Assembly (NCBI GenBank): GCA_017434555.1
Contig: JAFRFB010000052.1
Span: forward strand, 1 to 64,000
Direction: 5' to 3'
Origin: Methanobrevibacter sp.
GTDB taxonomy: Archaea; Methanobacteriota; Methanobacteria; Methanobacteriales; Methanobacteriaceae
Length of the DNA: 64,000 nt
Made by a program: the position numbers and the translations under genes. The notes below the pieces were generated by a model, which worked only from the letters and a program-made list of their open reading frames with translations, did no database searches and was not told where the DNA came from. Positions 3,682 to 43,272 of the stretch are shown here, piece after piece; the first letter of the stretch is position 1, and the number at the start of each line of letters is the position of its first letter.

Positions 3682-4335
3682 CTAACGATAAAACTCAACA
3701 AACAAACCATCCCATATATTCAAAGAATCAAACTCAGGATCAAAAAAAGTAACAAACCTACTCTTATCCCAACCTAATACTTCACTATAATAATCATAAA
3801 CAACCGGATAAGGCAAATCATTACTAACAATATAAGCCCAAACATCATCACTAGACCAATCTAACAAAGGATAACAATCCCCATCTTGAAAATAATTTTT
3901 ATACTTATGTTTTCTACGATTAGACTCTTCTCTGCGAACACCAATCAAACCCATATTCCAACCGTAACACTTCTTATTCTCATTAATTCGTCCAAAAAAT
4001 TGTTCATAACCACTACTTGTATCCTCACCATCACCATGCCGTTTATCTACAACAACATTAATTGCACCTAAACTTTCAAGATTACTTATAACCTCTGATT
4101 CAATAGGTCGTGGCATTAAATCATCACCATAATCCCAATGCCAAACAGGAACACTCTTATTCAAACTTAAACATAAATGAGTTAAAACAGTACTATCTTT
4201 ACCACCACTAAAACTAACATAACAATTATAATTATCTAAAGCTGTTTCAATAATACCTAATGATTTTTTAACTTTTAATTTATACTCTTTTCTCCGCGAA
4301 TGTAATAAGAATCCTTTTTTAGTGTATTTGTTCAT
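3682..4335 (-). CDS. small CysH/PAPS-reductase-like PP-loop enzyme
   Basis: 217 residues. The PP-loop SGGKDSTVL (near residue 42) is the signature of ATP pyrophosphatases of the CysH/DndC class, which adenylate a substrate. A YGDD segment follows, then VRREES and LLDWSSDDVWAY, the usual C-terminal CysH elements. No 4Fe-4S cysteine set is seen. It overlaps the upstream ibrB-like gene by 17 nt and closes the eight-gene operon that begins with csf1. It is the second PP-loop enzyme of the operon and shorter than the IbrA-like one. The true substrate (nucleic acid, nucleotide or sulfate) is unknown. Confidence 0.85.
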   Translation of the reverse strand: MNKYTKKGFLLHSRRKEYKLKVKKSLGIIETALDNYNCYVSFSGGKDSTVLTHLCLSLNKSVPVWHWDYGDDLMPRPIESEVISNLESLGAINVVVDKRHGDGEDTSSGYEQFFGRINENKKCYGWNMGLIGVRREESNRRKHKYKNYFQDGDCYPLLDWSSDDVWAYIVSNDLPYPVVYDYYSEVLGWDKSRFVTFFDPEFDSLNIWDGLFVEFYR

Positions 4336-4972
4336 TTAATTTAGCCTCAAATTCAACCCATGACTTGCTAAAAGTATGATTTTGAAATGCTTCTTTTAAA
4401 CCAGTAATCTGTTTTAACCTTAAAACTTCATCCATGTCCATACCTAATTTAGTACTTATTTCTTCATCACTCCAACCACTTTTAGATAAATCCAATACAA
4501 TTTCACTCATACTACGTATCTGATGACTTCCTCTTGCACGATTATGTCTTATAGTTGAACCCATACGTTCATCTAAAGGTTTATCAATAACTGTTAAAGG
4601 CAAATAACCATGTAATCTCATTGTAATATCTTCATGTTCTTTTCCAACACGGTTACGATGAAACCCATCAACAATCTCATATTCACTATCATTTATCTTG
4701 TAAGCAACAATGGGTTGAGTATAACCATCTAACTTTATACTATTATATAATAATTCCATTTCAGGTGTTGCAACATGATTTGGATTATATTCATTAGCAT
4801 GAACATTTTCCCCTTTAACATATTGCACATTACAAATAGGTTCTTTTAATGGATTTACTTCATTAACTGCTTGATTTAGTTTATTAATAATTTTAATTTT
4901 TTCATCCACATCATCAATATCATTAATAGCTATTGTTAATTCATTTATTAACTCATCAATCAATTTATTCAC
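4319..4972 (-). CDS. ibrB: IbrB-type ParB/sulfiredoxin-fold protein
   Basis: 217 residues. After a short helical lead it carries a ParB-like nuclease/sulfiredoxin fold: VHANEYNPNHVATPEM, DGYTQPIV, VDGFHRNRVGKE, then STIRHNRARGSHQ and a helix-turn-helix region (GWSDEEISTKLGMDMDEVLRL). This order and wording match the IbrB family, whose usual partner is IbrA, a CysH-like DUF3440 protein. Here IbrA lies two genes upstream in the same operon with a GNAT gene between. DGFHR replaces the GGHQR of the other ParB proteins in the window. Such folds can bind or hydrolyse nucleotides. The molecular role of IbrB is not established. Confidence 0.85.
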   Translation of the reverse strand: MNKLIDELINELTIAINDIDDVDEKIKIINKLNQAVNEVNPLKEPICNVQYVKGENVHANEYNPNHVATPEMELLYNSIKLDGYTQPIVAYKINDSEYEIVDGFHRNRVGKEHEDITMRLHGYLPLTVIDKPLDERMGSTIRHNRARGSHQIRSMSEIVLDLSKSGWSDEEISTKLGMDMDEVLRLKQITGLKEAFQNHTFSKSWVEFEAKLNEQIH

Positions 4973-5378
4973 CTACTTTTTTTTCAAGTACAAAGTAACT
5001 TCCCCTTTTACTCCTTTCAACAAAACCTAATTTTTTCCTTAACTTCAATATTATTGGATTATTGCTAGTTGTTGTCATAGTATAATTATCAAAGAAACTC
5101 ATTTGTCCGTTCATTATCCTTTTAGCTAAACCTTGACATCTATATTCTTCAACAACATATAACCCACCTAATTCAACAGTATCTTCTTCAAATTTATAAT
5201 GATAAAAAGCAACTAACTCACCATTATTCTTAAAATATAACACCCATTTATAATCTGTATCATTTATAAGATATGGCATTTCCTTACGATATTTCCGTTC
5301 AGCAAAATATTTACCTACATGACTATAAAATTCACTTTCAGATAACTCCCCAGGATAACATTTAATATTTAAAATCAT
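4965..5378 (-). CDS. GNAT-family N-acetyltransferase
   Basis: 137 residues with the GNAT fold. ELGGLYVVEEYRCQGLAKRI contains the acetyl-CoA pyrophosphate-binding motif A (R-x-Q-G-L-A), and NNPIILKLRKKLGF is the usual C-terminal helix ending in the GF signature. It overlaps the genes on both sides by 4-8 nt, between the IbrA-like and IbrB-like genes. The acceptor is unknown. Its position suggests that it acts in the IbrA/IbrB pathway or on its product. Confidence 0.85.
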   Translation of the reverse strand: MILNIKCYPGELSESEFYSHVGKYFAERKYRKEMPYLINDTDYKWVLYFKNNGELVAFYHYKFEEDTVELGGLYVVEEYRCQGLAKRIMNGQMSFFDNYTMTTTSNNPIILKLRKKLGFVERSKRGSYFVLEKKVGE

Positions 5379-6664
5379 TTTATTTCCTCCGCAAATTTCT
5401 TTAATTTACCATCAGTTGTATTTTCAGGTTTAATTAAATTTGTATTATATTTCTCACGCATTTCATTTAATAATCGAACATCACTTTTTGTTTGACTGAA
5501 GCTTAAACGGTTCATCCAGAAATCATTTCTTTCAATAGCTCTTGCCACACGCTCCCAATAGGGAGTTCTCTTTCTGCCTTCCATTTCCCATTTGGTGTCG
5601 GGTATCTGTGAGGGTTTTAATCCTATTTCTTTTTCCCACCATAACAAGAATTTACGGATTTTATTATAATAATGTATTTCAAGTTCCGGTGCGTATAGTC
5701 CTAAACTTTCTAATAAGAATACACTGTATTGTTGCCAACTCATGTGTGGTGGTTTTTCAGATTTTATATTTCCTAATAAGCTTGTACGTGCATATATGTT
5801 TCCGAAGTTTACTCCTTCAACACGATTTAATACTCTTTCCCATGTTTCAGGTTCTAATTCTCTGAACTGGTCAAGACTTTGTCGTTGATCATCACCATAT
5901 GGTTGGCATAATCTTTGTTGATGTATGCTTACACCATTTTTATATAACCATTCATAGACTTTATTATACTCCCAATCATATTTGCTAATGGCTCCCCAGA
6001 TATCCTCTGTTCTCCAATCGTATATTGGATAAAAATTATAAGTGTTTAAGGTTTTGTTATTAAATTTGACTCGTGTTGTCCAATTATAATTTTCATATGT
6101 TTCTTTAGTAGTGGATACTATTGTTCTGAAACGATTTAGACTTTCATCACTTCTTATTCCTATTCCTGCACCACTTATATCCCCCTTATGTTCTTTGTTA
6201 AACCATTCAGCGAATAATGGGGTGAATTCTTCGAATTCCATATTTTTATGGAAAAAAGGGAATGGATTATTATCTTCAGTTAAACAATCTTTAGGATATT
6301 CGCGAACCCATTTATCTTGTTCATTTAAATCCCAACAAGTCCATTTAGGTTGCAATACACTTACTGCGTTTCTTAAACTTAGTGGTAGACAGCACCAGTA
6401 AAATTCATCAATGACATTTTCTAAGTGCTGCCTCATATATTCAACATGTCTTATTGTTTCAGCGTATTGTGCCTCTAAATCTATGAATAGTACATTGAAT
6501 TTTTTACCAGTTTTTTCTGCCATCATTTTTGCTAAATGTAGCATTACTGTACTGTCTTTTCCTCCACTGAAGCTGAAGTAGATGTCATCGAATTCTTGAA
6601 ATGCTATTTGCATTCTTTTTTTTGCAGAGGTTAATACATCAATATTAGAATAAATTTTAGGCAT
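5375..6664 (-). CDS. ibrA: IbrA-like phosphoadenosine-phosphosulfate-reductase family protein
   Basis: 429 residues, the length of DUF3440/IbrA proteins. It carries the PP-loop SFSGGKDSTVMLHL (near residue 33), then FIDLEAQY and, further on, GIGIRSDESLNR and YDWRTEDIWGA, followed by a C-terminal region with WMNRLSF. The PP-loop implies ATP binding with adenylation of a substrate. CysH-family genes are the standard companion of type IV-B CRISPR loci, and this gene follows csf3 with an 8-nt overlap. It overlaps the GNAT gene by 4 nt. It may serve both as the IV-B CysH partner and as IbrA. Confidence 0.9.
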   Translation of the reverse strand: MPKIYSNIDVLTSAKKRMQIAFQEFDDIYFSFSGGKDSTVMLHLAKMMAEKTGKKFNVLFIDLEAQYAETIRHVEYMRQHLENVIDEFYWCCLPLSLRNAVSVLQPKWTCWDLNEQDKWVREYPKDCLTEDNNPFPFFHKNMEFEEFTPLFAEWFNKEHKGDISGAGIGIRSDESLNRFRTIVSTTKETYENYNWTTRVKFNNKTLNTYNFYPIYDWRTEDIWGAISKYDWEYNKVYEWLYKNGVSIHQQRLCQPYGDDQRQSLDQFRELEPETWERVLNRVEGVNFGNIYARTSLLGNIKSEKPPHMSWQQYSVFLLESLGLYAPELEIHYYNKIRKFLLWWEKEIGLKPSQIPDTKWEMEGRKRTPYWERVARAIERNDFWMNRLSFSQTKSDVRLLNEMREKYNTNLIKPENTTDGKLKKFAEEIK

Positions 6665-7409
6665 TTTTAACCCCTAAGCTTTGTTTTATTTGATTGGGTG
6701 GAACATAACACATTACTTTATTTTTTTTATTCCAGTATGGTGGTTTATATGATGCTTGTTGAAAGGTCATACCTTCAACTATTGGTAGTTTCATTGTTGC
6801 AGGTATGGTTCTCATTATTTGATTGTCTTTGAAGAAGCTGTAATCTTCTTTGGTTTCAGTTATAGTTATGGAGTGTATTTTTCCACCTCCTATACTGGAT
6901 TTTTTACCTATATGATGTAAGTGTGATAATAATCGTTTTAATTCTTTTTTATCACCGTTGCAGTAGAATGTTATTTTATCTGTTATAACTGTTGGTAATA
7001 GTATTATGAAGTCTTTGAAGTGCCCTTGGTTTATTTTTATTCTTCCTTTTTGTTGTTTTTTTGTTAAATGATATGTTTCTTTATCTGTGAATCTTTTGTA
7101 TACTTTATCTGTTTTGAGAGTGTATATGTTACTATAGATTCCAATGCTTGCATGGTATACATCATTTGTTTTTTTCAAGGGTAGGTCTAGTTGTGATATA
7201 TCAATTAGTTCATCTGTTGGTAAGATATAAAATAAATCATTTAATGCATCACGAAAACATAAGTATGAGATTATACTATCAAAATGCAACCATGGACTTG
7301 TTAAATATAATGGGGATGTTATATTAAATACTATTTTTAATGGAGTATAGTTACATCCAGTTGTATATTCATTGATTTTTTCATTGAATATACTATTATC
7401 TATTTCCAT
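6657..7409 (-). CDS. csf3: type IV CRISPR Csf3 (Cas5-like RAMP)
   Basis: 250 residues. The order of elements follows Csf3: an opening strand (LKIVFNITSPLYL), WLHFDSIISYL, a DLPLKK segment before the HAS turn, then KKELKRLLSHLHHIGKK followed by the glycine-rich loop SSIGGGK and IMRTIPATMKLP, closing with PPYW. In type IV complexes Csf3 caps the 5' handle end of the guide. It overlaps csf2 by 10 nt and the ibrA-like gene by 8 nt. Family assignment is by remembered motif pattern; similarity to bacterial Csf3 is low. Confidence 0.8.
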   Translation of the reverse strand: MEIDNSIFNEKINEYTTGCNYTPLKIVFNITSPLYLTSPWLHFDSIISYLCFRDALNDLFYILPTDELIDISQLDLPLKKTNDVYHASIGIYSNIYTLKTDKVYKRFTDKETYHLTKKQQKGRIKINQGHFKDFIILLPTVITDKITFYCNGDKKELKRLLSHLHHIGKKSSIGGGKIHSITITETKEDYSFFKDNQIMRTIPATMKLPIVEGMTFQQASYKPPYWNKKNKVMCYVPPNQIKQSLGVKNA

Positions 7410-8245
7410 ATTTTCACCAATCCATCTAAAAACTCAATAATAGATGATTGATTATCATGTAAATAATCCAAATAAACATCATCAGACAATCCATTAATAC
7501 TAGGATAATCTAATTCAACTTTACCATAACCTGTTGCAGACTTAGCCCCAATATAAGGTCTTTCTTGCCATAATCTGAACATTCTAACAAAACAAGCTTG
7601 TTCAATACTATTACAATTCTCAAGTACAAACTCATGAGTAAACTTAGTACCACGAATTAATGTTTCAAATTCATATTTCATCTGATGATTCTGCTCTTCA
7701 TCACCAGAATATTCTTTCAAATCATCAAGTCTTGTTCCAAAATCAATAGATTTCAAATTATATGCTGAAAAATCAATATCATCATAATCAGATATATAAT
7801 GTTTAGTTTCACTGCAAACTATATTACCCATCCCCACTTTTAATTTACCTTGAATCATCTGGTTACCAATAGCAGAACCTAATAAACTTATAGGAGGTAT
7901 CATTTCCCTTAACTCTTTTTTCAAAGATAAATTAATAGCCCCCTTATCTTTATTATCCAATGCTTCCAGTAAACCCCCAGTGAATAAAAAATGATATATT
8001 TTTTTACTGTTTAAATCATAATCTAATTGAGTTAAATAATCATCCATGATTAACCTACGCAAATAACCTCTTATAGCATTACCATGAATAGTAGGAATAT
8101 TATCAACTTCCTTTTCATTAGTGACTGGATTAACAATTACAGTAGGTAAACTTAAAATCAATTTTGTTGTACCATAATCACTACTATCACCATGATGTAT
8201 TGGTGATAATGCTGTTAAATTACCTTTATATACTTCAGTTAACAT
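7400..8245 (-). CDS. csf2: type IV CRISPR Csf2 (Cas7-like backbone)
   Basis: 281 residues. It opens with a RAMP strand and SPIHHGD, followed by IPTIHGNAIRGYLRRLIMDD, the helix typical of Cas7/Csf2 RAMP proteins, then FTGGLLEAL, PPISLLGSAIGNQMIQGKLKVG and, near the C-terminus, PYIGAKSATGYGKVEL with the RAMP glycine-rich loop. Csf2 polymerises along the guide RNA to form the effector filament. It lies 24 nt after cas11 and overlaps csf3. Confidence 0.88.
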   Translation of the reverse strand: MLTEVYKGNLTALSPIHHGDSSDYGTTKLILSLPTVIVNPVTNEKEVDNIPTIHGNAIRGYLRRLIMDDYLTQLDYDLNSKKIYHFLFTGGLLEALDNKDKGAINLSLKKELREMIPPISLLGSAIGNQMIQGKLKVGMGNIVCSETKHYISDYDDIDFSAYNLKSIDFGTRLDDLKEYSGDEEQNHQMKYEFETLIRGTKFTHEFVLENCNSIEQACFVRMFRLWQERPYIGAKSATGYGKVELDYPSINGLSDDVYLDYLHDNQSSIIEFLDGLVKIWK

Positions 8246-8269: not shown

Positions 8270-8608
8270 TTATATTTTTTTTAATTCATCAACCTTTTCT
8301 AGAGCATAATTAGTAACATATAATGATTCTTTACGAATTAAACCCATAGTAAACTCATTATACTCCTCTAATAAACAAATATCCTCTGAATCTAATTTAA
8401 CAAAAGTTACACTAACTTTTCTAGTTAAAATATCTAAAAATTCCTTAAAATTCTTAGCATTAGCACTTGCACGTATACGATCAATGAAGAATTTATGTGC
8501 TGACTTAACACTAATCTTACTCCAAGGTATCTGTAAATAAATTCTAGCAAGAATAATAGCTAATTTCTCCTCTAAATCATCCTCAATTTTATCATCCACC
8601 AACATCAA
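8270..8608 (-). CDS. cas11: putative type IV small subunit Cas11
   Basis: 112 residues, predicted all-helical, no cysteine cluster. The sequence alone does not identify it. The position between csf1 and csf2 and the size match the Cas11 small subunit of type IV-B loci, which packs along the belly of the Csf2 filament. Spacing to the neighbours is 24-33 nt in the same direction. Confidence 0.65.
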   Translation of the reverse strand: MMLVDDKIEDDLEEKLAIILARIYLQIPWSKISVKSAHKFFIDRIRASANAKNFKEFLDILTRKVSVTFVKLDSEDICLLEEYNEFTMGLIRKESLYVTNYALEKVDELKKI

Positions 8609-8641: not shown

Positions 8642-9277
8642 TTAATCCTCCAAATACAATGCCAAATCCCATACCGGATTATCGACATTACATTTAATAT
8701 ACTCTAAAAAATCTCTAGCTTTATTTCTACCAAACTTTTTAACAATTTCACGATAATGATGCATTTCCAAATCACCAGTTTCAAATACATTCTTAGGTAT
8801 TTTTAAATTTCTTAACTGTTTAATAAAATCCATCATAGTATATAATGTGTCTAATTTAACTCTAACAATATCATAATCTATTAAGAAATTAATCTCATTT
8901 TTATTGTTTTCATTGTATACTTCATTCATTCTTATCCAACCAATTTTTTGCCATGTTTTAGTAAGATAAATATAAAAAGGTTTATCAGGTAAATTATAAA
9001 CAATGTCCTTTGCATTTTTCTTTTTGAATTTTATTAATTCATCTTCAGTTAATAGAAACATAGTGCGCCTATATTCATTACTATTTTTCACAAGATAATT
9101 ACACTCTGGACAAATTACTTCACCATAGCTTATGTATTCAGCACATGTGAAATTACCACTAAATTTCTTTTTAAATCCATTTGTAGTATGTTTTTTACAT
9201 ATACAACAATCTCCTTCTAATTCCCCTTCCTCGGGAGATACCTTTATAGTATTACATAACATTTCACTAAAAATCAT
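8642..9277 (-). CDS. csf1: type IV CRISPR Csf1 (zinc-finger large subunit)
   Basis: 211 residues. It starts FSEMLCNTIKVSPEEGE and carries two cysteine pairs, CCIC (near residue 25) and CPEC (near residue 57), with a further cysteine between. RRTMFLLTEDEL and PDKPFYIYL follow, in the order seen in Csf1 proteins. Csf1 is the Cas8-like subunit defining type IV systems; four cysteines bind zinc. First gene of the operon, with its own promoter at 9331-9350 and a GGATGAGGTG ribosome binding site. No DinG helicase, Cas6 or array is near, which points to type IV-B. Confidence 0.82.
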   Translation of the reverse strand: MIFSEMLCNTIKVSPEEGELEGDCCICKKHTTNGFKKKFSGNFTCAEYISYGEVICPECNYLVKNSNEYRRTMFLLTEDELIKFKKKNAKDIVYNLPDKPFYIYLTKTWQKIGWIRMNEVYNENNKNEINFLIDYDIVRVKLDTLYTMMDFIKQLRNLKIPKNVFETGDLEMHHYREIVKKFGRNKARDFLEYIKCNVDNPVWDLALYLED

Positions 9278-10921: not shown

Positions 10922-10942
10922 AAAAATAAAAGGATATAAGTT

Positions 10943-11620
10943 TTAAGATAAACTCATATCCATTTCATTCGATTTTGTCCATTTAACCGCACGATAAGTA
11001 ATTGGTTGTAGGAATGTCTCAATAAGAACTTTCATTACATACTGAGTAAGTATAAAACCCATTAAATTTAGTGTTGGCATAGTACCAACAAAAGCTATGG
11101 AAATAAATAATATAGTATCAATAGCTTCACCGAATATAGTAGAACCAATTGTCCTGATAAATAAATACTTACTATTTGTTAATTTTTTAATTAATACCAT
11201 AGTTTTTGCATTTACCCATTGTCCGCAAATATATCCTATCAAACTTGCAATGACAATCCTTGGTACGAAACCAAAAACATATTCAAGACTAGCCTGAGCT
11301 ACACCAAATGTTACAGGATCATATGGTAAAAGTATTGCTACTGTACCTACAATAACCATGAACACTTTCATACCCATACCTAATAATGCTGTTTTAATCA
11401 TAGTTTCAAAACCAAAACATTCGGTTATAACATCCGCCGCAATATACACGGCGACAAATAAGACACATCCAGCTTCTATTGTAAAATTACCCCATGTACA
11501 AACCTTTGTTGCAAGTAAATCAGATAATACTCCGGCTACTGCAAATAAGGTTATCATTAAAATCTTTTTCTGATTAAAATCTAATCTAAAATAATTTCTA
11601 AAATTCTCAAATTCTATCAT
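10943..11620 (-). CDS. yhhQ: queuosine precursor transporter (VUT/YhhQ family)
   Basis: 225 residues with about six membrane segments. The family pattern is clear: LLATKVCTWGNFTIEAG, YIAADVITECFG, an IGYICGQWVNAK helix and IRTIGSTIFGEAIDTILF. YhhQ proteins import the 7-deazaguanine precursor preQ0/preQ1. It overlaps the dpdA-like gene by 4 nt, so import and use of the deazapurine are encoded together. That link to DNA modification is inference from synteny with a known pathway. Confidence 0.9.
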   Translation of the reverse strand: MIEFENFRNYFRLDFNQKKILMITLFAVAGVLSDLLATKVCTWGNFTIEAGCVLFVAVYIAADVITECFGFETMIKTALLGMGMKVFMVIVGTVAILLPYDPVTFGVAQASLEYVFGFVPRIVIASLIGYICGQWVNAKTMVLIKKLTNSKYLFIRTIGSTIFGEAIDTILFISIAFVGTMPTLNLMGFILTQYVMKVLIETFLQPITYRAVKWTKSNEMDMSLS

Positions 11621-12354
11621 TTTTGTTTTTTCCTCCAGTATTTTTTGTAGTGTTCTTGTTTTTTTCTCCAGTCGAGGAAGCTTAGGATTAGTCTTTCTTC
11701 TCCTGTTAGGCTTTCTCTTGTTATTTTTTTGCCTTGGAATCTTCCGTATACTACGCTGAACATCCAGCTTGCACTGTCTACGCTGTCGAATGGTACATTT
11801 TCGAGGATGTATTTTCGTGTTCCTCCTAGTCCATGTATCATGCAGTCATTATCATGTGCTTCTTTTGCAAACTTAATCAGGTCTTTGTCTGGTATTCCTT
11901 CTATTGGTAGGCAGGATATTGATACGTAATCATAGTTTCGGCACATTTTTTGGTAGTTTTTGTATCCTCTGTTTTTGTGCCATACTGGTATGATTTTATC
12001 TGTTGTTTCTTCGAGTATTCGTCTTAATCGTAGGACGTTTTTGTATCCGATTCGGTTGTCTATGTCCATTTCGAAGTATCCTTGCACATTGGGCTGGTCA
12101 TATTTTCGTATGAATTCACTGTATTGTATTGTGTATTCTTCGAAGTTAGCGTTTTGTGCTGTGTGGAAAGTATGTGCTCCACTATCAATTAATATATTAT
12201 CGATTCGTGGTTGTATCTCCAAGTATTGTTTCAATTTTGTTTTCTGCCTTGTATAATAATAGCTGAATAAGTGATTGTATGCTTGTAGTGTTGGATGTTG
12301 TAGTGTGTAGTTTATGAATGCTTGTGTTTCTGATGCAGCTAAGTATATTTTCAT
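11617..12354 (-). CDS. dpdA: DpdA-like DNA guanine transglycosylase
   Basis: 245 residues of a TIM-barrel TGT-like protein. LIDSGAHTFH, FEMDID, PVWHKNRGYKNY, DYVSISC, HGLGGTRKYIL and FDSVDSASW follow the order seen in viral DpdA proteins, which swap guanine in DNA for preQ0 or a derivative. The conserved Asp residues in IDSGAH and SVDSAS are candidates for the catalytic acids. It is shorter than tRNA TGTs and lacks a PUA domain. It overlaps its neighbours by 4 nt on both sides (yhhQ and a ParB-like gene). Confidence 0.87.
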   Translation of the reverse strand: MKIYLAASETQAFINYTLQHPTLQAYNHLFSYYYTRQKTKLKQYLEIQPRIDNILIDSGAHTFHTAQNANFEEYTIQYSEFIRKYDQPNVQGYFEMDIDNRIGYKNVLRLRRILEETTDKIIPVWHKNRGYKNYQKMCRNYDYVSISCLPIEGIPDKDLIKFAKEAHDNDCMIHGLGGTRKYILENVPFDSVDSASWMFSVVYGRFQGKKITRESLTGEERLILSFLDWRKKQEHYKKYWRKKQK

Positions 12355-13052
12355 GAATTACTCATCCTGCAATTGTACCCCTGACTTATTAGGTTGTCGT
12401 ATTCGGTTACCATTTCGTCTTCTGTGTCGAAGATTAATGTTATATGGTAGTAGCCAGGTACTTTTTCGGATTCACTTATGTTTTCTTCAGTTTCCAAGTA
12501 TTCGTCATTATTTTCGTTTTCATCAATAGTTTCAACGGTATTATTGGATGAATTATTTGTGGTTTTAGTTTTTTCATCAGTTGTGAATTCTATTTTATCC
12601 ATTAAACCGATGTATTCTAATTCTTCATCGTAACTGTTGAAACCTGTTAAATCTAAATCGAAATCTATTTCTTTTAAGTCTTTGAATACTTCACCTAATT
12701 TAGTTAAATCCCATTCACCATTGATACGGTTTAATGCTAGGTTTAATGCTTTTTCCTTACTTGTATCATCGAGTATTAAGTCTTCGTCTATGAACACCCA
12801 TCCGATATCACCTAATCTTATTAGGTTTAGTTCTGCATAAAGATTATTATCAATCATGTATTGGTCTAATAGTACATCGTATCTTTGATGTCCTCCAATA
12901 ATTGTATTATTGTTTAGGTTTATTATTATTGGATCTACTAGACCGAATTCTTTTATACTATTAGTTAGTTTTGTTTTTTCATCACTTGTCATTACACGCG
13001 GATTATAATTGGCTGGTGTAATATCAGTGATTTTTATTTTCTCAAAATCCAT
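12351..13052 (-). CDS. ParB-like protein partnered with dpdA
   Basis: 233 residues. The N-terminal half is a ParB/sulfiredoxin fold: ITPANYNPRVMTSDE, FGLVDPIIIN, IIGGHQRYDVL, then ALNLALNRINGEWDLTKL, typical of phage ParB proteins. An acidic low-complexity linker (residues 150-200) leads to a short C-terminal domain. DpdB of bacterial dpd clusters contains a ParB-like ATPase domain needed with DpdA, so this is a candidate functional equivalent, supported by the 4-nt overlap with dpdA. It is a paralog of the plus-strand protein at 14443-15066. Confidence 0.82.
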   Translation of the reverse strand: MDFEKIKITDITPANYNPRVMTSDEKTKLTNSIKEFGLVDPIIINLNNNTIIGGHQRYDVLLDQYMIDNNLYAELNLIRLGDIGWVFIDEDLILDDTSKEKALNLALNRINGEWDLTKLGEVFKDLKEIDFDLDLTGFNSYDEELEYIGLMDKIEFTTDEKTKTTNNSSNNTVETIDENENNDEYLETEENISESEKVPGYYHITLIFDTEDEMVTEYDNLISQGYNCRMSNS

Positions 13053-13075: not shown

Positions 13076-13303
13076 TTAATAATCGAGGATGTCACGTATT
13101 GCTTGTTCCCTTAAGCGATATGCTTCGATATCCTCACAATCAACACTTTTATTCATAATGTCACGTACTATTCTTAAATCTTCCACGATTACGGGATTCC
13201 ATAATTCACCAGTAGTCATATTTTTAAGATAGTAGACTTTGTTTTTCCGTATTATAATGTATTTCATAACTTTTTTTTTATTCAAAATCACTCCAAATTC
13301 CAT
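13076..13303 (-). CDS. small unknown protein
   Basis: Up to 75 residues. The internal ATG giving MKYIIIRKNKVYYLKN (13267) is the more natural start, although a GGAGTGA lies well upstream of it, nearer a TTG. It has a beta-rich N-terminus and a charged helix (LREQAIRDILDY) at the end. It lies just upstream of the ParB/dpdA/yhhQ genes in the same direction and may be cotranscribed. Confidence 0.6.
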   Translation of the reverse strand: MEFGVILNKKKVMKYIIIRKNKVYYLKNMTTGELWNPVIVEDLRIVRDIMNKSVDCEDIEAYRLREQAIRDILDY

Positions 13304-14013: not shown

Positions 14014-14446
14014 TATCCGAGTAAAAAAATGCAAAGACTGCACACAAACGGAATGCACTAAACTATACGACCACCACCACGACCTACACTACAGTGAAAC
14101 CTGTGGAACAGTCATACTACAATCCAACACCTACCACGTAGACTACTACAGCGACCCAGACTACTGGGAAAAACAATACCAAAAACGCGAAGAAGCAAAG
14201 CAAAAACGAGAAATAATCAAAGTAATACAAGAAGAACTAGGAATCAACTACCAAATACACGAAGACGGAACAATACAATTACCCAACCTAACCAGTAAAC
14301 AAATCAACAGATTAACCTACCTATGCGAAGGCACACCATTCAAATTAACACCAGTACAAATCCATGATGAAAACAATACTTACTTAGGCTTAAAATACAT
14401 TATAAAAAAAGAAAAAAAAGAAAATAAGGAGAAAAACTATAAATGA
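13967..14446 (+). CDS. Cys/His-rich protein, unknown
   Basis: 159 residues. The N-terminal third has CKDCTQTEC and a DHHHDLHYSETC segment, a plausible zinc site. A charged helix (YWEKQYQKREEAKQKREI) and a C-terminal region of strands and short helices follow. Its codons use C in the third position more than most genes here. It overlaps the ParB gene at 14443 by 4 nt and is one of only three clear plus-strand genes, so the pair forms a separate cassette. Confidence 0.75.
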   Translation: MMNGTINPTINYQQSNIRVKKCKDCTQTECTKLYDHHHDLHYSETCGTVILQSNTYHVDYYSDPDYWEKQYQKREEAKQKREIIKVIQEELGINYQIHEDGTIQLPNLTSKQINRLTYLCEGTPFKLTPVQIHDENNTYLGLKYIIKKEKKENKEKNYK

Positions 14447-15066
14447 CAAGTGAAACAATAGAAACTAGTACAATAAAAATAACCGACATAGTACCAGCAA
14501 GGTACAATCCAAGAAAAATAAGTGCTGAAGATTATCAAAAACTAAATGATAGTATAAGTGAATACGGTCTAGTGGATCCAATCATAATCAACATAAACAA
14601 CAACCGTATAATCGGAGGACACCAAAGATTCGATGTATTAATGAACCAATATCTCGCAGGTGATAAAGATTATGAAACATTAACATTAATAAAACGTGGG
14701 GACATAGGTTGGTTATTCATTAATGAGGACTTAGTTGTTAAAGATTTAAACCATGAAAAAAGCTTAAACATAACACTAAACAAAGTACAAGGTGAATGGG
14801 ATTCCGAGAAATTAGAGATGTTACTAAATGACCTTAGTACAGAAGGCTTAGACCTGAGCCTAACCGGTTGGAGTAAAAACGAAATAAAAGAACTATCAAA
14901 AGAAATAGATTTAAGTCCATTCGGTAAAAATGGTGAAGCATTAGAAGACCCATTAAATGATGAAGAGGAAAGTAAAAAAGAAGTGAGTAATATTAGAAAC
15001 AAGAAAGAAATAAGTTGTCCATTCTGTGGAGCCGTTTTCATGGAGGATGAAGGTATTGATGAATAA
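14443..15066 (+). CDS. ParB-like protein with C-terminal zinc knuckle
   Basis: 207 residues. ITDIVPARYNPRKIS, YGLVDPIIIN and RIIGGHQRFDVL define the ParB fold, followed by KSLNITLNKVQGEWDSEKL. The C-terminus has CPFCG; only one cysteine pair is present, so zinc binding would need dimerisation or is lost. It is close to the minus-strand ParB protein at 12351-13052 in its first 130 residues, with the ends replaced. It is translationally coupled to the gene at 13967. Confidence 0.85.
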   Translation: MTSETIETSTIKITDIVPARYNPRKISAEDYQKLNDSISEYGLVDPIIININNNRIIGGHQRFDVLMNQYLAGDKDYETLTLIKRGDIGWLFINEDLVVKDLNHEKSLNITLNKVQGEWDSEKLEMLLNDLSTEGLDLSLTGWSKNEIKELSKEIDLSPFGKNGEALEDPLNDEEESKKEVSNIRNKKEISCPFCGAVFMEDEGIDE

Positions 15067-24633: not shown

Positions 24634-25377
24634 TTATATTAATGTTGACTGATAACTCCCTTTCCCAGTTATTAATTCCTCTTTCAATGGCTCAACAATA
24701 TTCTTATCATTATTATTTTCTACTCCAAGGTATTGGAAACCATCCTCATAAGAATTTAATAATTCCACATGGGGAACAGGTAAACCAAAACCAAGATATT
24801 GATTTACTTTATATCCTTTAAAGAATTCACCAGATATACTGTTTCCATGTATTACGGTTCCTCTTGCTCCATGAAACATTAAATTAATTGTTGTCATTTT
24901 AACACTTGTTTCATCTAAGTCAATTCCGAATCCTATAACTAAAGGTTCTTTGTTATGGCCTGCTAGGAGGAATCTTCCACTTCCACAGCAACTGTCCATT
25001 AGAAAAGTATTCTTATAATTATTATTTTCCATAGTTAGTTCAGCCATTACTTCTGCTATATGTGGTGGTGTGAAATATTGTCCTCGTGCAGAAGCTTTAT
25101 ATCCTGTTTTAATATTATTTTCATAAAACACTCCAAGATAATCACTCCAACCAACTACACCCGAGTGTCTTACATCTTCTCTCACTTCACGATGCATTAA
25201 TCGTAAATACAATAGGAATAATTCATAATAATCCTTTTCACGACCATTAAAATCTAAGTTCTGATTTACTGTTGTGAATAGGTTAATATCTATCACATAA
25301 TCCAACCATTCCTCCCATGCTTTTTGAGGATCATATGAACTACTTATTTCCTTGAATTTTTTTTCAAAAGTTGTCAT
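24634..25377 (-). CDS. N6-adenine methylase-like protein without NPPY motif
   Basis: 247 residues. It resembles the HsdM/N-6 methylase core: ARGQYFTPPHIAEVMAEL, then SAM-binding motif I DSCCGSGRFLLAG (near residue 128), and GIDLDETSVKMTTINLMFHG. Where the catalytic NPPY/F should follow there is instead GFGLPVPHVELL, and the protein stops soon after. A second copy at 54054-54842 has the same replacement. It may bind SAM without methylating bases. It ends in QSTLI, a PIP-like tail. It overlaps the recombinase gene by 4 nt. Confidence 0.82.
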   Translation of the reverse strand: MTTFEKKFKEISSSYDPQKAWEEWLDYVIDINLFTTVNQNLDFNGREKDYYELFLLYLRLMHREVREDVRHSGVVGWSDYLGVFYENNIKTGYKASARGQYFTPPHIAEVMAELTMENNNYKNTFLMDSCCGSGRFLLAGHNKEPLVIGFGIDLDETSVKMTTINLMFHGARGTVIHGNSISGEFFKGYKVNQYLGFGLPVPHVELLNSYEDGFQYLGVENNNDKNIVEPLKEELITGKGSYQSTLI

Positions 25378-26384
25378 ACTATTGTCACCGCACTTAAATG
25401 TTGAATATATTTCTCTTTTAGTTTAATTGGATTGTCTTTGAAATAAGCATTGTGAGTTGCATCTTTACTACGACCTTGTATTGCATCTATATCTTCCATG
25501 CTCATTCCATCATCGTATAAGTAACTTGCATTAAATTTTCTTAACATATGACTTCTTAATCTTCTATAACCGTTAACTTCACCTAAGTTTAATTTATCAT
25601 TTAACTGTTTAAATCCATAATTTAACTGGTCTCTATTTGTTTTGAATAGCTTATGTTCATTGTAACCCTTGAATTTCCTTTGTGAAATAATAAGATAATT
25701 ACAAATACTTCGTACAGCTTCGGGGCTGCAGAATGTATAGTAATATTTATTTGTTTTTTGTCTGCGAATTTTAAAAGTAGGTACAACATCATCTCTTGCA
25801 AGCAATGTGACTAATACTTCTTGTATTGTGCCACCATTATGATAATCTTTTGTTGCTTCGATGAAATCTTCTAAGGTAATGTTTAATATTTCCTGTCTTG
25901 CACAGCCACTACTTGCACCAAATAATACAACTGCTTTTATCAATGGGTCTGCTTCCATTATAATAGCTTGTAATTCTTCTTTAGTTAGCAAATCATCAAA
26001 TCGTATAGGTTCATTTTTACGTACAGATTTAGTATTTATTTTTGGAATGTATCCCATATCAATTTCAAAGTGATTGTAAAAAGTTTTTATTCTACCAAAA
26101 TGTACTTTAACAGTACCATAAAGATAATTCTCTAATAAATAGGAACGGAAACCTAATAATTTTTGTTTTAATTTACTTTTTTTCCACTGCACACCTGCTT
26201 CTTCTTCATTGTCTGCTTCGTTTAACAATTCCTGCAAATGCATATTACAATACTTGACATATAAACCCATAGCACTATAATATCCATACATTGTCTTTTG
26301 ATTTAAACCTCTTTCACTTTGAAAAGTGTCTAGTAAATTCAAATCATTACTTGATAAATATTTTTTAAACTTAGATTCAATCAT
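25374..26384 (-). CDS. archaeal-type tyrosine recombinase
   Basis: 336 residues from the ATG at 26384, preferred because it follows a GGGGGGA sequence and does not overlap the AP2 gene; the frame is open to 26471. It has a core-binding domain, then the catalytic set: SSGCARQEILNI (first Arg), RSHMLRKF (His and second Arg), QGRSKDATHNAYF (Tyr). A Lys/Arg replaces the usual His of the LGH motif. It is closer to the 563-2167 recombinase than to the tandem XerC/D-like ones (both have PQAVR/PEAVR before the second half). Confidence 0.85.
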   Translation of the reverse strand: MIESKFKKYLSSNDLNLLDTFQSERGLNQKTMYGYYSAMGLYVKYCNMHLQELLNEADNEEEAGVQWKKSKLKQKLLGFRSYLLENYLYGTVKVHFGRIKTFYNHFEIDMGYIPKINTKSVRKNEPIRFDDLLTKEELQAIIMEADPLIKAVVLFGASSGCARQEILNITLEDFIEATKDYHNGGTIQEVLVTLLARDDVVPTFKIRRQKTNKYYYTFCSPEAVRSICNYLIISQRKFKGYNEHKLFKTNRDQLNYGFKQLNDKLNLGEVNGYRRLRSHMLRKFNASYLYDDGMSMEDIDAIQGRSKDATHNAYFKDNPIKLKEKYIQHLSAVTIV

Positions 26385-26409
26385 ATTATTTTTTATGTCC
26401 CCCCTTTTG

Positions 26410-27054
26410 TTACCAATAGCAATTAACTCTAGGTTTATATCGTTTACTATTATTCCACATAACCACATCATTACGATGATTATGTTTTTGGAAAGTTGTT
26501 TTAAGAGTTTTACCCTGTAAATAACCTATTTCACCATTAATAGTTTCATCAATACCTTCACATAATGCATCCCAATCAAAATCAGTTTGGATTAATAAAT
26601 CTCTTTCAAGTATTGCATCATCAACATTATCAAACATACCATAAATCACTTCATCTTTAATTATCCAATATTTTCCTCGTTTCTGTTGAATATATTTCAA
26701 ATGATTATCTGGTCTTAATGATTCATCCCAATTATTTTTTATACATTTATCTCTATGCAGGATAGCTTCTCCTAGTGTATCAAAAGTCCCATAACTGTAT
26801 CTTTTACGATTATTAGATTCATGATTACCAAAACATTTTTCAACTTTATATTTATCACCAATTTTTTGAATAAACTTTGAAGTTGAATAATTTAACCTTT
26901 CATTTAAACAATTACTCCAACCTTTAGATTCAAAATAATCCCGATAATCAATAGCTTCCTCTAAAGAATCATAACTGCCGAAATTATATTCTTTCCCATC
27001 CACATATTTTCTTATGTAAAATTTACCGGAAGCTGAAACACTAATATTCTTCAT
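26410..27054 (-). CDS. AP2-repeat protein (three repeats)
   Basis: 214 residues. Three AP2-like repeats of the form SGKFYIRKYVDGKEYNFGSY-LEEAIDYRDYFE, followed by the conserved tail W-ALCEGIDETINGE and a basic end with KHNHRND. AP2 folds bind DNA through a three-stranded sheet. The tail is shared with the AP2 proteins at 35205 and 40304. It sits directly upstream of the recombinase gene, as such genes do elsewhere in the window. Confidence 0.82.
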   Translation of the reverse strand: MKNISVSASGKFYIRKYVDGKEYNFGSYDSLEEAIDYRDYFESKGWSNCLNERLNYSTSKFIQKIGDKYKVEKCFGNHESNNRKRYSYGTFDTLGEAILHRDKCIKNNWDESLRPDNHLKYIQQKRGKYWIIKDEVIYGMFDNVDDAILERDLLIQTDFDWDALCEGIDETINGEIGYLQGKTLKTTFQKHNHRNDVVMWNNSKRYKPRVNCYW

Positions 27055-38838: not shown

Positions 38839-39870
38839 TTAGTTTGTGTATTTAGTATGATTTAATTTAACAGCATCTTGATCAACATTAACATAAATCA
38901 TAGTAGTGCTTATGCTTTCATGACCAAGTAATTTTTGAACTTGTTCTATAGGCATGCCTCTACGGATAGCATTAGTAGCCATTGTTCTTCTGAACTTATG
39001 TGGATGGCATTTAACACCACATTTCTCACCTAATTCCCTCATTATCCTTTCATGACCTGACTTACCCACACGATCATTTGGTGTATGGCTTGTAACAAAT
39101 AATGCAGGGTTATCATCATCACGTGACATTAAGTATTGTTGAAGATATAATTTTGCTTTATTATTAAAATAACAAGTTCTTTCTTTATTTCCTTTACCTA
39201 ATACTTTAAAAGTTAAATTATTGAAATTCATATCATTACGATTTAATCCAACTAACTCACCTATCCTTATACCACTACTTAATAGTAATTCAAATACTGC
39301 TTTAAGACGTATATCATCTGAAGGTATACTATCACGTAATTTTTCTAATTCATAATCAGTGAAAGCTTTTTTAACTTTTGTCTGACCACGAATCTTTTTA
39401 ATACGAGTCATTGGATTTTTGAAAATATAATCATTCTTATGTAACCAAGCAAATAGGCTAGATAAATGTTTACGAAGATTATCTAATGTAATATGACTAC
39501 AATCATTTAATCCCTGATACCAATCCAGAAATTCACGTATATCATCAGTGGTGATTAAAGAATAATGTTTACGCATATAACTGAAAAAATAATTATAACT
39601 TCTTTTATAAGCCACTAATGTTTTATTACTTAATCCTTCAACACTTTTTGCTTTGAAATATTCTTTTACTATGTGAATGTTTTCATTTTCCCAATCCAAA
39701 TGAATATCTTCTTTTTTCATAGTTAAGGTTACTTTATTAAATTCCTGATTTAATATACGATTTAATTGCATCATCTGATTACCATCAAGAACCTTATCCA
39801 TTCTATCAAGAATATCTTCAGTAGCTCTTCTTTGTGCTTCCGCACTTATTGATTTAATAGCTGTAGTCAT
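38839..39870 (-). CDS. XerC/D-like tyrosine recombinase, tandem copy 2
   Basis: 343 residues, complete catalytic set: SSGIRIGELVGLNRNDM, GKGNKERTCYF, HPHKFRRTMAT, LLGHESISTTMIYVNVD. The N-terminus has ILDRMDKVLDGNQMMQLNR. Overlaps the small gene at 39867 by 4 nt, so it is coupled to it. It is a paralog of copies 1, 3 and 4 with different core-binding regions, which likely give each a different target. Confidence 0.9.
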   Translation of the reverse strand: MTTAIKSISAEAQRRATEDILDRMDKVLDGNQMMQLNRILNQEFNKVTLTMKKEDIHLDWENENIHIVKEYFKAKSVEGLSNKTLVAYKRSYNYFFSYMRKHYSLITTDDIREFLDWYQGLNDCSHITLDNLRKHLSSLFAWLHKNDYIFKNPMTRIKKIRGQTKVKKAFTDYELEKLRDSIPSDDIRLKAVFELLLSSGIRIGELVGLNRNDMNFNNLTFKVLGKGNKERTCYFNNKAKLYLQQYLMSRDDDNPALFVTSHTPNDRVGKSGHERIMRELGEKCGVKCHPHKFRRTMATNAIRRGMPIEQVQKLLGHESISTTMIYVNVDQDAVKLNHTKYTN

Positions 39871-41127: not shown

Positions 41128-42183
41128 TTAGTTCACATACCTTTTATGATTATATTGTATTTCTTCATCATTTTCAACTACATATAATTTAGTTGTAGCT
41201 AAGTTAGCATGCCCTGCCATTATCCTTATTTGTTCTAAAGGAACATTTTTACTTAATAAACTACAACAGAAACTTCTACGGAAACGATGCGGATGAACAT
41301 TAACCACATCAGCTCTTTTAGCAATAACATTCAAACTATGCTCAATCCCACCATTTTTTAATCTTTTATATGGTTTATGATAACTTACAAATAATGCTGG
41401 ATTCCTATCAGTTCTGGAATCTAAGTAATTTAATATTGCCACCTTTGATGAATCATTGAAATAACATTTTCTTTCTTTATTACCTTTTCCTATAACATAA
41501 AAAGTATTATTATTAAAATCTAAATCATCACGATTAATATTAGATAACTCTGATACTCTTACTCCACTGCTTAATAGTAATTCGAATATTGCTTTTTCTC
41601 TTAGTTTATTACAATTGTTTCTTAGTCTAGCTATTTCTTCTGAAGTGAATGGTTGTCTCACTTGTTTTGGTTGTTTGATTTTTTCAATTTTCTTCATTGG
41701 ATTACGGAATATTAAACCTTCAATATTGCAGAAACTATAAAAACTGGATAAGTAACGACGGTAATTATCTATAGTTCTTTTAGTTGTTCCATTCTCCAGT
41801 AAATAATTAAACCATTCTCGTATGTCATCACTTGTCATTTCAGCTAAACTTTTATCATGAAACTTTAACAAGTAACCGATAACATCATTATATACTTTTA
41901 AGGTGGTTTCTGCTAAACCGATTAATCGTTTAGTTTTATTGAATTGTTCTATTAATGTTTTGTTAACTTCCGTGTAATCTTCATCAAAAACCGATTCTGA
42001 GGATATACTGTAATTCTTAATAGTTTTATTTAATAATTTATTCAATTCAGATAATTGTCTGCTGTTTAAGAATTTTTGCATGTCTCTTAGTATATTGTTG
42101 ATTAAAACATTAACTTCATTATTATCATTGGTTTTGTAGAAGTCGTTTAAAATTACATTTCCAATATTATTTGTTGAATCCAC
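41128..42183 (-). CDS. XerC/D-like tyrosine recombinase, tandem copy 3
   Basis: 351 residues, full set: SSGVRVSELSNINRDDLDF, GKGNKERKCYFN, HPHRFRRSFCCSLL, MAGHANLATTKLYVV. Here a MAGH replaces LLGH. N-terminal element MQKFLNSRQLSELNKLL. Downstream of copy 4 and upstream of the small membrane gene. The conserved Lys in KGNKE is present. Confidence 0.9.
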   Translation of the reverse strand: MDSTNNIGNVILNDFYKTNDNNEVNVLINNILRDMQKFLNSRQLSELNKLLNKTIKNYSISSESVFDEDYTEVNKTLIEQFNKTKRLIGLAETTLKVYNDVIGYLLKFHDKSLAEMTSDDIREWFNYLLENGTTKRTIDNYRRYLSSFYSFCNIEGLIFRNPMKKIEKIKQPKQVRQPFTSEEIARLRNNCNKLREKAIFELLLSSGVRVSELSNINRDDLDFNNNTFYVIGKGNKERKCYFNDSSKVAILNYLDSRTDRNPALFVSYHKPYKRLKNGGIEHSLNVIAKRADVVNVHPHRFRRSFCCSLLSKNVPLEQIRIMAGHANLATTKLYVVENDEEIQYNHKRYVN

Positions 42184-42207: not shown

Positions 42208-43272
42208 TTAGAAATTAGTATATTTTTTATGAGTCATTTCAATAGTCTTATCATCCAAATCTATATAACGTAGGGTGGTCTCGATACTATCATGCCCCAT
42301 AAGTTTCTGGACTTGATCTATTGGCATGCCTTTTTTAATCATACTGCTGCAGAATGTTCTACGGAATTTATGTGGATGAGCTTTAACATCTGTTTTTTGA
42401 CCTAACCTTTTTATCATTGATTCCACTGCAGTGATGTCTATTTTATTTTTTTGATTATTAACGAATAGGTGTGGATTATTATCTTGTCTTAACTGTAAGT
42501 ATTGTAGCATATAATTTTTAGCTTTTTCACTAAAGTAAACAATACGTTCTTTATCTCCTTTACCATTTACAATTGCTTTGCATTCATTAAAATTAACATC
42601 ATCTATTTTTAATGATACTAACTCACCTACACGCATACCAGATGATAAAAATAATTCAAAAATAGCTTGGTTCCTCATACCAATTATACTAAGTTTTTCT
42701 TTCTTATATCTCAAGTAAGTATGTTTATTTAATTCCCATCTCATACGTTCAATTTCATCATAAGTAAATGCCTTTCTAAGTTTTTTAGGTTCTTTAATTG
42801 CAGGAACACGAAGCATAGGATTTATTACTATTTTTTCTTCATCAGTTAAAAATCTGAAAAAAGAACTTAAATTACGACGAATATTATTTAATGTTACTTT
42901 ACTACAATCATGTTGTGCTTGGTAAAATATGAAGAAATCTTTTAAATCTTCACTACTTAACTCTAAAAATGATTTTATTGTCCATTTATTCAAATTATTA
43001 ATAGCTCCAGTATATGCTCTTAGTGTTTGTTTGGATAATCCTTTAGTTTTCTTGGATTTTATAAATTCTTTTATTAGAATATTATTTGTTTTTTCATAAT
43101 CTAAATCATGATTAGTAGGATTATCTGCGAATGTTAAATTATTAGTATTATAATATAATGATTTATTCAACTCAGATAACTGTTTATTATCAAGAAATCC
43201 TTCCATTCCATTTAGGATATCTTCTATGAATTGTCGTTTATATTCTCCTGTTATTGTTTGAAATGTAGACAT
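42208..43272 (-). CDS. XerC/D-like tyrosine recombinase, tandem copy 4
   Basis: 354 residues, full set: SSGMRVGELVSLKIDDVNF, GKGDKERIVYF, HPHKFRRTFCSSMI, LMGHDSIETTLRYIDLD. N-terminal element EGFLDNKQLSELNKSL. First of the tandem run, with a promoter at 43298-43317, close to its ATG, so the mRNA is nearly leaderless or has a short leader. Confidence 0.9.
   Translation of the reverse strand: MSTFQTITGEYKRQFIEDILNGMEGFLDNKQLSELNKSLYYNTNNLTFADNPTNHDLDYEKTNNILIKEFIKSKKTKGLSKQTLRAYTGAINNLNKWTIKSFLELSSEDLKDFFIFYQAQHDCSKVTLNNIRRNLSSFFRFLTDEEKIVINPMLRVPAIKEPKKLRKAFTYDEIERMRWELNKHTYLRYKKEKLSIIGMRNQAIFELFLSSGMRVGELVSLKIDDVNFNECKAIVNGKGDKERIVYFSEKAKNYMLQYLQLRQDNNPHLFVNNQKNKIDITAVESMIKRLGQKTDVKAHPHKFRRTFCSSMIKKGMPIDQVQKLMGHDSIETTLRYIDLDDKTIEMTHKKYTNF

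Follow-up and report, generated by a model that had tools for sequence, protein, structure and literature searches.

Insertion of deazaguanine into DNA has been proven for Enterobacteria phage 9g and Escherichia phage CAjan, where it blocks restriction enzymes (PMC6884629). Both phages encode a DpdA homologous to the one described here; unlike our locus, they carry full biosynthesis (Gat-QueC in 9g), and no ParB is annotated beside the 9g DpdA. In bacterial Dpd islands of the Salmonella Montevideo type, DpdA is accompanied, as in our locus, by a ParB-superfamily protein, DpdB, and sometimes by the importer YhhQ (PMC11888242); these islands differ in that their DpdB is of the DndB type and in that DpdC and a restriction operon are usually present. 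In Mycobacterium phage Laurie (Rosebushvirus), which stands in for its genus-mate Rosebush in our comparison of gene orders, ParB and DpdA genes overlap by 4 nt and are followed by QueC-QueD-QueE-FolE and terminase. Laurie thus synthesizes preQ0 instead of importing it, its DpdA is longer (346 aa), and its host is a bacterium. The ParB-DpdA-QueC-D-E-FolE order recurs in Arthrobacter phage Sonali. Rosebush DNA contains dPreQ0 at ∼28% of G, while none is present in the DNA of Orion, where DpdA is encoded but neither phage nor host has a supply (PMC6884629).

Fusobacterium phage phiFN37 resembles our locus in its ParB/DpdA overlap, in a downstream YhhQ and in having no adjoining biosynthesis genes, and its DpdA is 30% identical to ours; it is a bacterial phage, however, and a DpdC-like DUF6884 gene lies between DpdA and YhhQ, predicting dADG rather than dPreQ0. 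Phage preQ0 transporters beside complete synthesis genes are already known from EC151 (PMC8310023) and Druskaviridae (PMC8651126). A link between DpdB and ParB was suggested earlier for mycobacteriophages (PMC6392294), and a ParBc protein frequently adjoins CmoX, a cytosine modifier of phages (PMC12783734). According to Hutinet et al. (2019), phages with DpdA only form the largest group of unpredictable status, and YhhQ showed no correlation (PMC6884629).

A three-gene cassette on the minus strand

The DNA analyzed here, called the window, comprises 64,000 nucleotides (positions 1-64000 of a 65,642-base contig) from a Methanobrevibacter genome of 3.15 Mb that is 99.5% complete. Its minus strand carries, in 5' to 3' order, a ParB-like gene (12351-13052; 233 aa), a gene for a DpdA-type DNA-guanine transglycosylase with a barrel fold (11617-12354; 245 aa) and a gene for a YhhQ/QPTR (COG1738) importer (10943-11620; 225 aa). 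Consecutive genes overlap by the 4 nt ATGA, at 12351-12354 and 11617-11620, and the positions, strand and overlaps listed in a sequence-only reading of this DNA proved exact. At the end of YhhQ (10932-10961, minus strand) lies a possible terminator, a hairpin with a T-rich stretch, which is a weak pattern match of a kind for which ∼1.5 chance matches are expected in the region. The next gene upstream, a 75-aa open reading frame (ORF) at 13076-13303 on the minus strand, ends 23 nt before the ParB-like gene and is possibly the first of the operon; no relative of it was found near the nearest cassettes.

The transglycosylase matched PHROG 887, "queuine tRNA-ribosyltransferase" (7e-34), annotated phage DpdAs in tblastn searches and, by profile-profile comparison with hhalign, the phage 9g DpdA group (99.2%, E 2.3e-19, 208 columns). 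Strong homology to an enzyme that has been proven to act on DNA thus upholds its proposed identity as DpdA. The predicted catalytic residues are D57 (in DSGAH) and D193 (in VDSASW), plus H126 and H174. Loss of the catalytic Asp residues had been named as what would refute the proposal; instead, D57 and D193 are each retained in 63/63 aligned relatives, as is H174 in 62/63, and these three align with D72, H196 and D215 of 9g in DSGA, HGxG and DSSSW motifs. The search patterns account in part for the invariance at 92-98 and 120-126, but D57, H174 and D193 fall outside them.

The zinc motif of TGT, CxCxxC, occurs in 7/7 archaeal TGTs and in 0/63 DpdA relatives. Its absence sets DpdA apart from the tRNA enzymes, and judging from its sequence the product of 11617-12354 is probably not one of them. 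A Pfam scan gave no match, PF01702 (TGT) included. AlphaFold2 produced a confident compact barrel (pLDDT 93), for which Foldseek against the PDB returned generic TIM barrels only, TGT being absent from the top 50. By sequence, phmmer and profile searches of the PDB retrieved no relative and thus no TGT either, and direct profile comparison with archaeal TGTs gave no match; a mixed DpdA profile aligned the two Asp motifs weakly with archaeal TGT (E 0.001). A second TGT-like match in the genome (C117; 247 aa) has no cassette, is genus-wide and was rejected as a DpdA.

The importer passed the curated cutoffs of NCBIfam TIGR00697, "queuosine precursor transporter" (108.5 bits; cutoff, 51), and of Pfam Vut_1, PF02592 (9e-41; 140 bits; cutoff, 27), confirming its membership in the precursor importer family; it scored far under the cutoff of the E. 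coli-type YhhQ equivalog model (38 versus 252 bits). It is the only YhhQ copy in this genome, although in the majority of the other genus genomes some contig carries YhhQ. The window protein is 65-69% identical to cassette copies on other elements versus 35-40% to eight host-genus copies and hence is part of the cassette and not a recent gene of the host. Because substrates differ within the YhhQ family (preQ0/preQ1 or queuine; PMC11130926), family membership makes preQ0 its likely cargo only.

The ParB/Srx N-domain of the first cassette protein is supported by Pfam (PF02195 ParB_N, 1.1e-6), by profile and by fold, its AlphaFold2 model matching solved ParB/Noc N-domains (E 2e-4); the protein also matched PHROG 620 (ParB-like phage proteins, 9e-35). 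The N-domain holds a GGHQR nucleotide-binding motif, and there is a separate conserved C-terminal segment (YHITLIFDTEDEMVTEYDNLISQGYNCRMSNS). Most relatives retain the G-H-x-R nucleotide motif, and 46/55 end in a CxxC zinc half-motif, in place of which the Methanobrevibacter group has a different C-terminal segment. Among the nearest models were PHROG 498 (ParB domain fused to DNA methyltransferases) and the PADLOC ParB-MTase model (MTase_II; 1.3e-22, N-terminal part only). The score against the full-length partition ParB model TIGR00180 was 21.7 bits, under its cutoff of 58, and a Pfam scan up to E 0.1, which found ParB_N, detected no DndB domain. The protein had been called a DpdB-like helper. 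Membership in the ParB superfamily bears this out as far as it goes, but the lack of a DndB domain and the methyltransferase-fused relatives do not; by its sequence, it appears to belong with the ParBs that occur in fusion with DNA methyltransferases and is not demonstrably DpdB.

A second ParB-like protein (14443-15066, plus strand; PF02195, 6.7e-7), with a CPFCG zinc half-motif, is a paralogue of the cassette ParB and is ∼53% identical over 138-152 aa to the cassette ParBs of relatives. It is encoded on the opposite strand from the cassette, and its membership in the module is uncertain.

A conserved trio and the exchange of its supply gene

We searched IMG/VR and GTDB with a profile and, adding two phage records, obtained 75 usable DpdA loci. 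ParB lies directly upstream of DpdA in 59/71 loci with enough flank, the overlap being exactly 4 nt in 34 loci, and YhhQ lies directly downstream in 50/73, so that the trio, as proposed, is more than a chance arrangement. After clustering at 70% identity, the 53 clusters with both flanks present included 43 with ParB, 34 with YhhQ and 29 with both. ParB matches were rare at other positions of the DpdA loci, which served as the adjacency control (a PAPS-reductase control set gave only one locus). Protein distances of the trio correlate (Mantel r 0.47-0.66, p 0.001, highest for DpdA-ParB), which in part reflects the common descent of their carriers. The nearest cassette is on a 110,529-base contig of another genome of the same genus, and window-type DpdA was present in only 2/60 genus genomes searched. 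Besides the paralogous ParB and two short partial matches, the window has only the trio in common with its nearest relatives, the flanks being unrelated, which indicates that the cassette moves as a unit. The DpdA gene of one locus (L019:5844-6588) is broken into two open frames, through decay or sequencing error.

Loci that lack YhhQ usually have another supply gene instead. QueT, an importer family for queuosine precursors that is unrelated to YhhQ, directly follows DpdA in six such loci (L041, L048, L062, L075, L081, and L085); QueC is present in three (L042, L046, and L054), and a QueC-like gene directly follows DpdA in two (L003 and L063). Among 50 records searched whole, another supply gene was present in 9/14 without YhhQ versus 1/36 with it (Fisher p 7e-6; p 2e-4 after leaving out the two weak QueC-like cases), p-values that are optimistic because the records are related. 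Of the five unexplained YhhQ-less records, four are contigs of <10 kb. No other evidence speaks as strongly as this swapping for a cassette that would feed 7-deazaguanine to DpdA, and it favors the original reading of the trio as a 7-deazaguanine module: a conserved unit whose supply gene is exchanged for other deazaguanine supply genes.

Genes for base tailoring also occur next to DpdA. QueF directly follows it in L042 and L054, for which dPreQ1 is predicted, and a DpdC-like DUF6884 gene adjoins it in L046 (3547-3984) and phiFN37 (L002; 8805-9239), for which dADG is predicted. In L063, a 196-kb virus contig, a SurE-family phosphatase gene (5290-5925) lies directly upstream of DpdA; ParB-like genes occupy 4687-5286 and 7417-8022, and the QueC-like gene occupies 6688-7407.

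Proposed mechanism and alternative readings

We consider it probable that the operon imports a guanine analogue and that DpdA exchanges it for guanine in DNA with the ParB-like protein as its partner. The sequence shows the operon layout, the importer and transglycosylase families, the catalytic residues, the conservation of the trio and the exchange of supply genes; we infer DNA as the substrate, preQ0 as the base, a role for ParB and an anti-restriction benefit. YhhQ would carry the free base into the cell, supplementing the host supply made for archaeosine. At selected guanines, DpdA would break the glycosidic bond by way of a covalent intermediate at Asp193 and put the free base in place, in the manner of TGT on tRNA. 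Its ParB-like partner may bind DNA and/or nucleotide and either direct DpdA to its target or make it act repeatedly. Some guanines would thereby become 7-deazaguanine, most likely 7-cyano-7-deazaguanine (preQ0), shielding the DNA of the element from restriction; dPreQ0 is predicted since neither QueF nor DpdC adjoins the window cassette.

The catalytic layout is common to DpdA and TGT, and it has been suggested that phages which carry preQ0 genes and lack DpdA may increase tRNA modification in the host (PMC6884629). The enzyme could accordingly be a viral TGT that acts on tRNA, tunes host translation and is fed by YhhQ. That reading is very improbable given the missing zinc motif, a closer match to the DNA-acting 9g DpdA than to TGT, a full-length archaeal TGT already in the host, a ParB-like protein as the constant partner, and sibling cassettes that adjoin phage packaging genes. 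About as improbable is a host function, in which the cassette would provide the modifying part of a Dpd-like restriction system and so label the host's own DNA. Although Dpd islands do pair DpdA with a ParB-superfamily protein and ∼9% have YhhQ (PMC11888242, PMC12839542), DpdC (DUF6884) is absent from the whole genome, no Dpd restriction genes or other Dpd match to the cassette emerged from PADLOC (whose library may not cover all dpd models), window-type DpdA is rare in the genus, and the relatives are chiefly in virus records near terminase and portal genes.

It is also unlikely, if slightly less so, that DpdA alone matters and that the ParB gene, serving replication or partition, has no connection with it and is upstream by coincidence. 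Phages commonly carry ParB-like genes, the window itself has three, and 12/71 loci with enough flank have no adjacent ParB; such a coincidence is nevertheless hard to square with the adjacency and exact overlap in so many loci, with the DpdA-ParB distance correlation (r 0.66) or with the same pairing beside other supply genes in phages Laurie and Sonali. A ParB-DpdA cassette with varying supply genes recurs in dozens of viruses, bacterial and archaeal. Beyond the import-and-exchange model itself, we tentatively suggest, with less than even confidence, that it is a general plug-in DNA modification unit, in which the ParB nucleotide switch would serve as a loading clamp for DpdA, a minimal transglycosylase of 245 residues, and the precursor slot would be exchangeable (YhhQ, QueT, or biosynthesis), and which might have crossed between bacterial and archaeal viruses and onto the window element, where there are type IV Cas proteins and no detectable virion genes.

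If the import-and-exchange model is correct, a rule follows for the gene after DpdA: an importer would denote salvage, a QueC-type gene synthesis, and QueF or a DpdC-like gene a tailored base, so that the base could be predicted from gene order. The ParB partner, noted before in phages, becomes a direct experimental question. The model would also bring gut methanogens, by way of their elements and tailed viruses, into the range of DNA deazaguanine supplied through salvage, of which no earlier report for them was found in the literature searched.

Host, carrier element and neighboring genes

The host genome encodes QueC and a full-length archaeal TGT, so the cell can be expected to contain free preQ0 whether or not it imports any. 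The sequence-only reading had noted that the cassette lacks biosynthetic genes and would live on precursor from host or medium; the lack of such genes stands, but dependence on the medium is not needed when the host has its own QueC, and the importer would add to the supply. Its description of the trio as the smallest possible set does not hold, as some phages carry DpdA alone (PMC6884629).

Most relatives of the cassette come from virus records, where terminase and portal genes are their neighbors, and the sibling cassettes in methanogen-type loci L096, L004, and L008 adjoin terminase or portal genes. PHROGs and Pfam found no virion gene within the window, which carries integrases, homing endonucleases, DNA methyltransferases and Cas proteins. 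The element may therefore be plasmid-like or integrative, or it may be an archaeal virus too divergent to see. A circular genome was considered for the 65.6-kb contig and dropped, since a terminal overlap was sought and none was found. At least five tyrosine-integrase-like genes are present (563-2167, 25374-26471, 38839-39870, 41128-42183, and 42208-43272), three of them within 4.5 kb.

The minus strand between 3682 and 9277 encodes the type IV CRISPR-Cas proteins Csf2/Cas7 (7400-8245; 5.7e-67) and Csf3/Cas5 (6657-7409; 1.1e-58); an ORF at 8270-8608 and a Cys-rich one at 8642-9277, on the same strand, are candidates for Cas11 and Csf1. Csf3/Cas5 is followed by genes for a DUF3440 PAPS reductase (5375-6664), a GNAT (4965-5378), a ParB-like protein beside the PAPS-reductase genes (4319-4972) and a second PAPS-reductase-like protein (3682-4335), all on the minus strand. 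The CysH-type neighbor suggests type IV-B. The pair of PAPS reductase (DUF3440) and ParB-like protein at 4319-6664 is also present in phiFN37 (L002; 2772-4560), the two ParBs being 57% identical, and is a second pairing of ParB with an enzyme on elements that carry the DpdA cassette.
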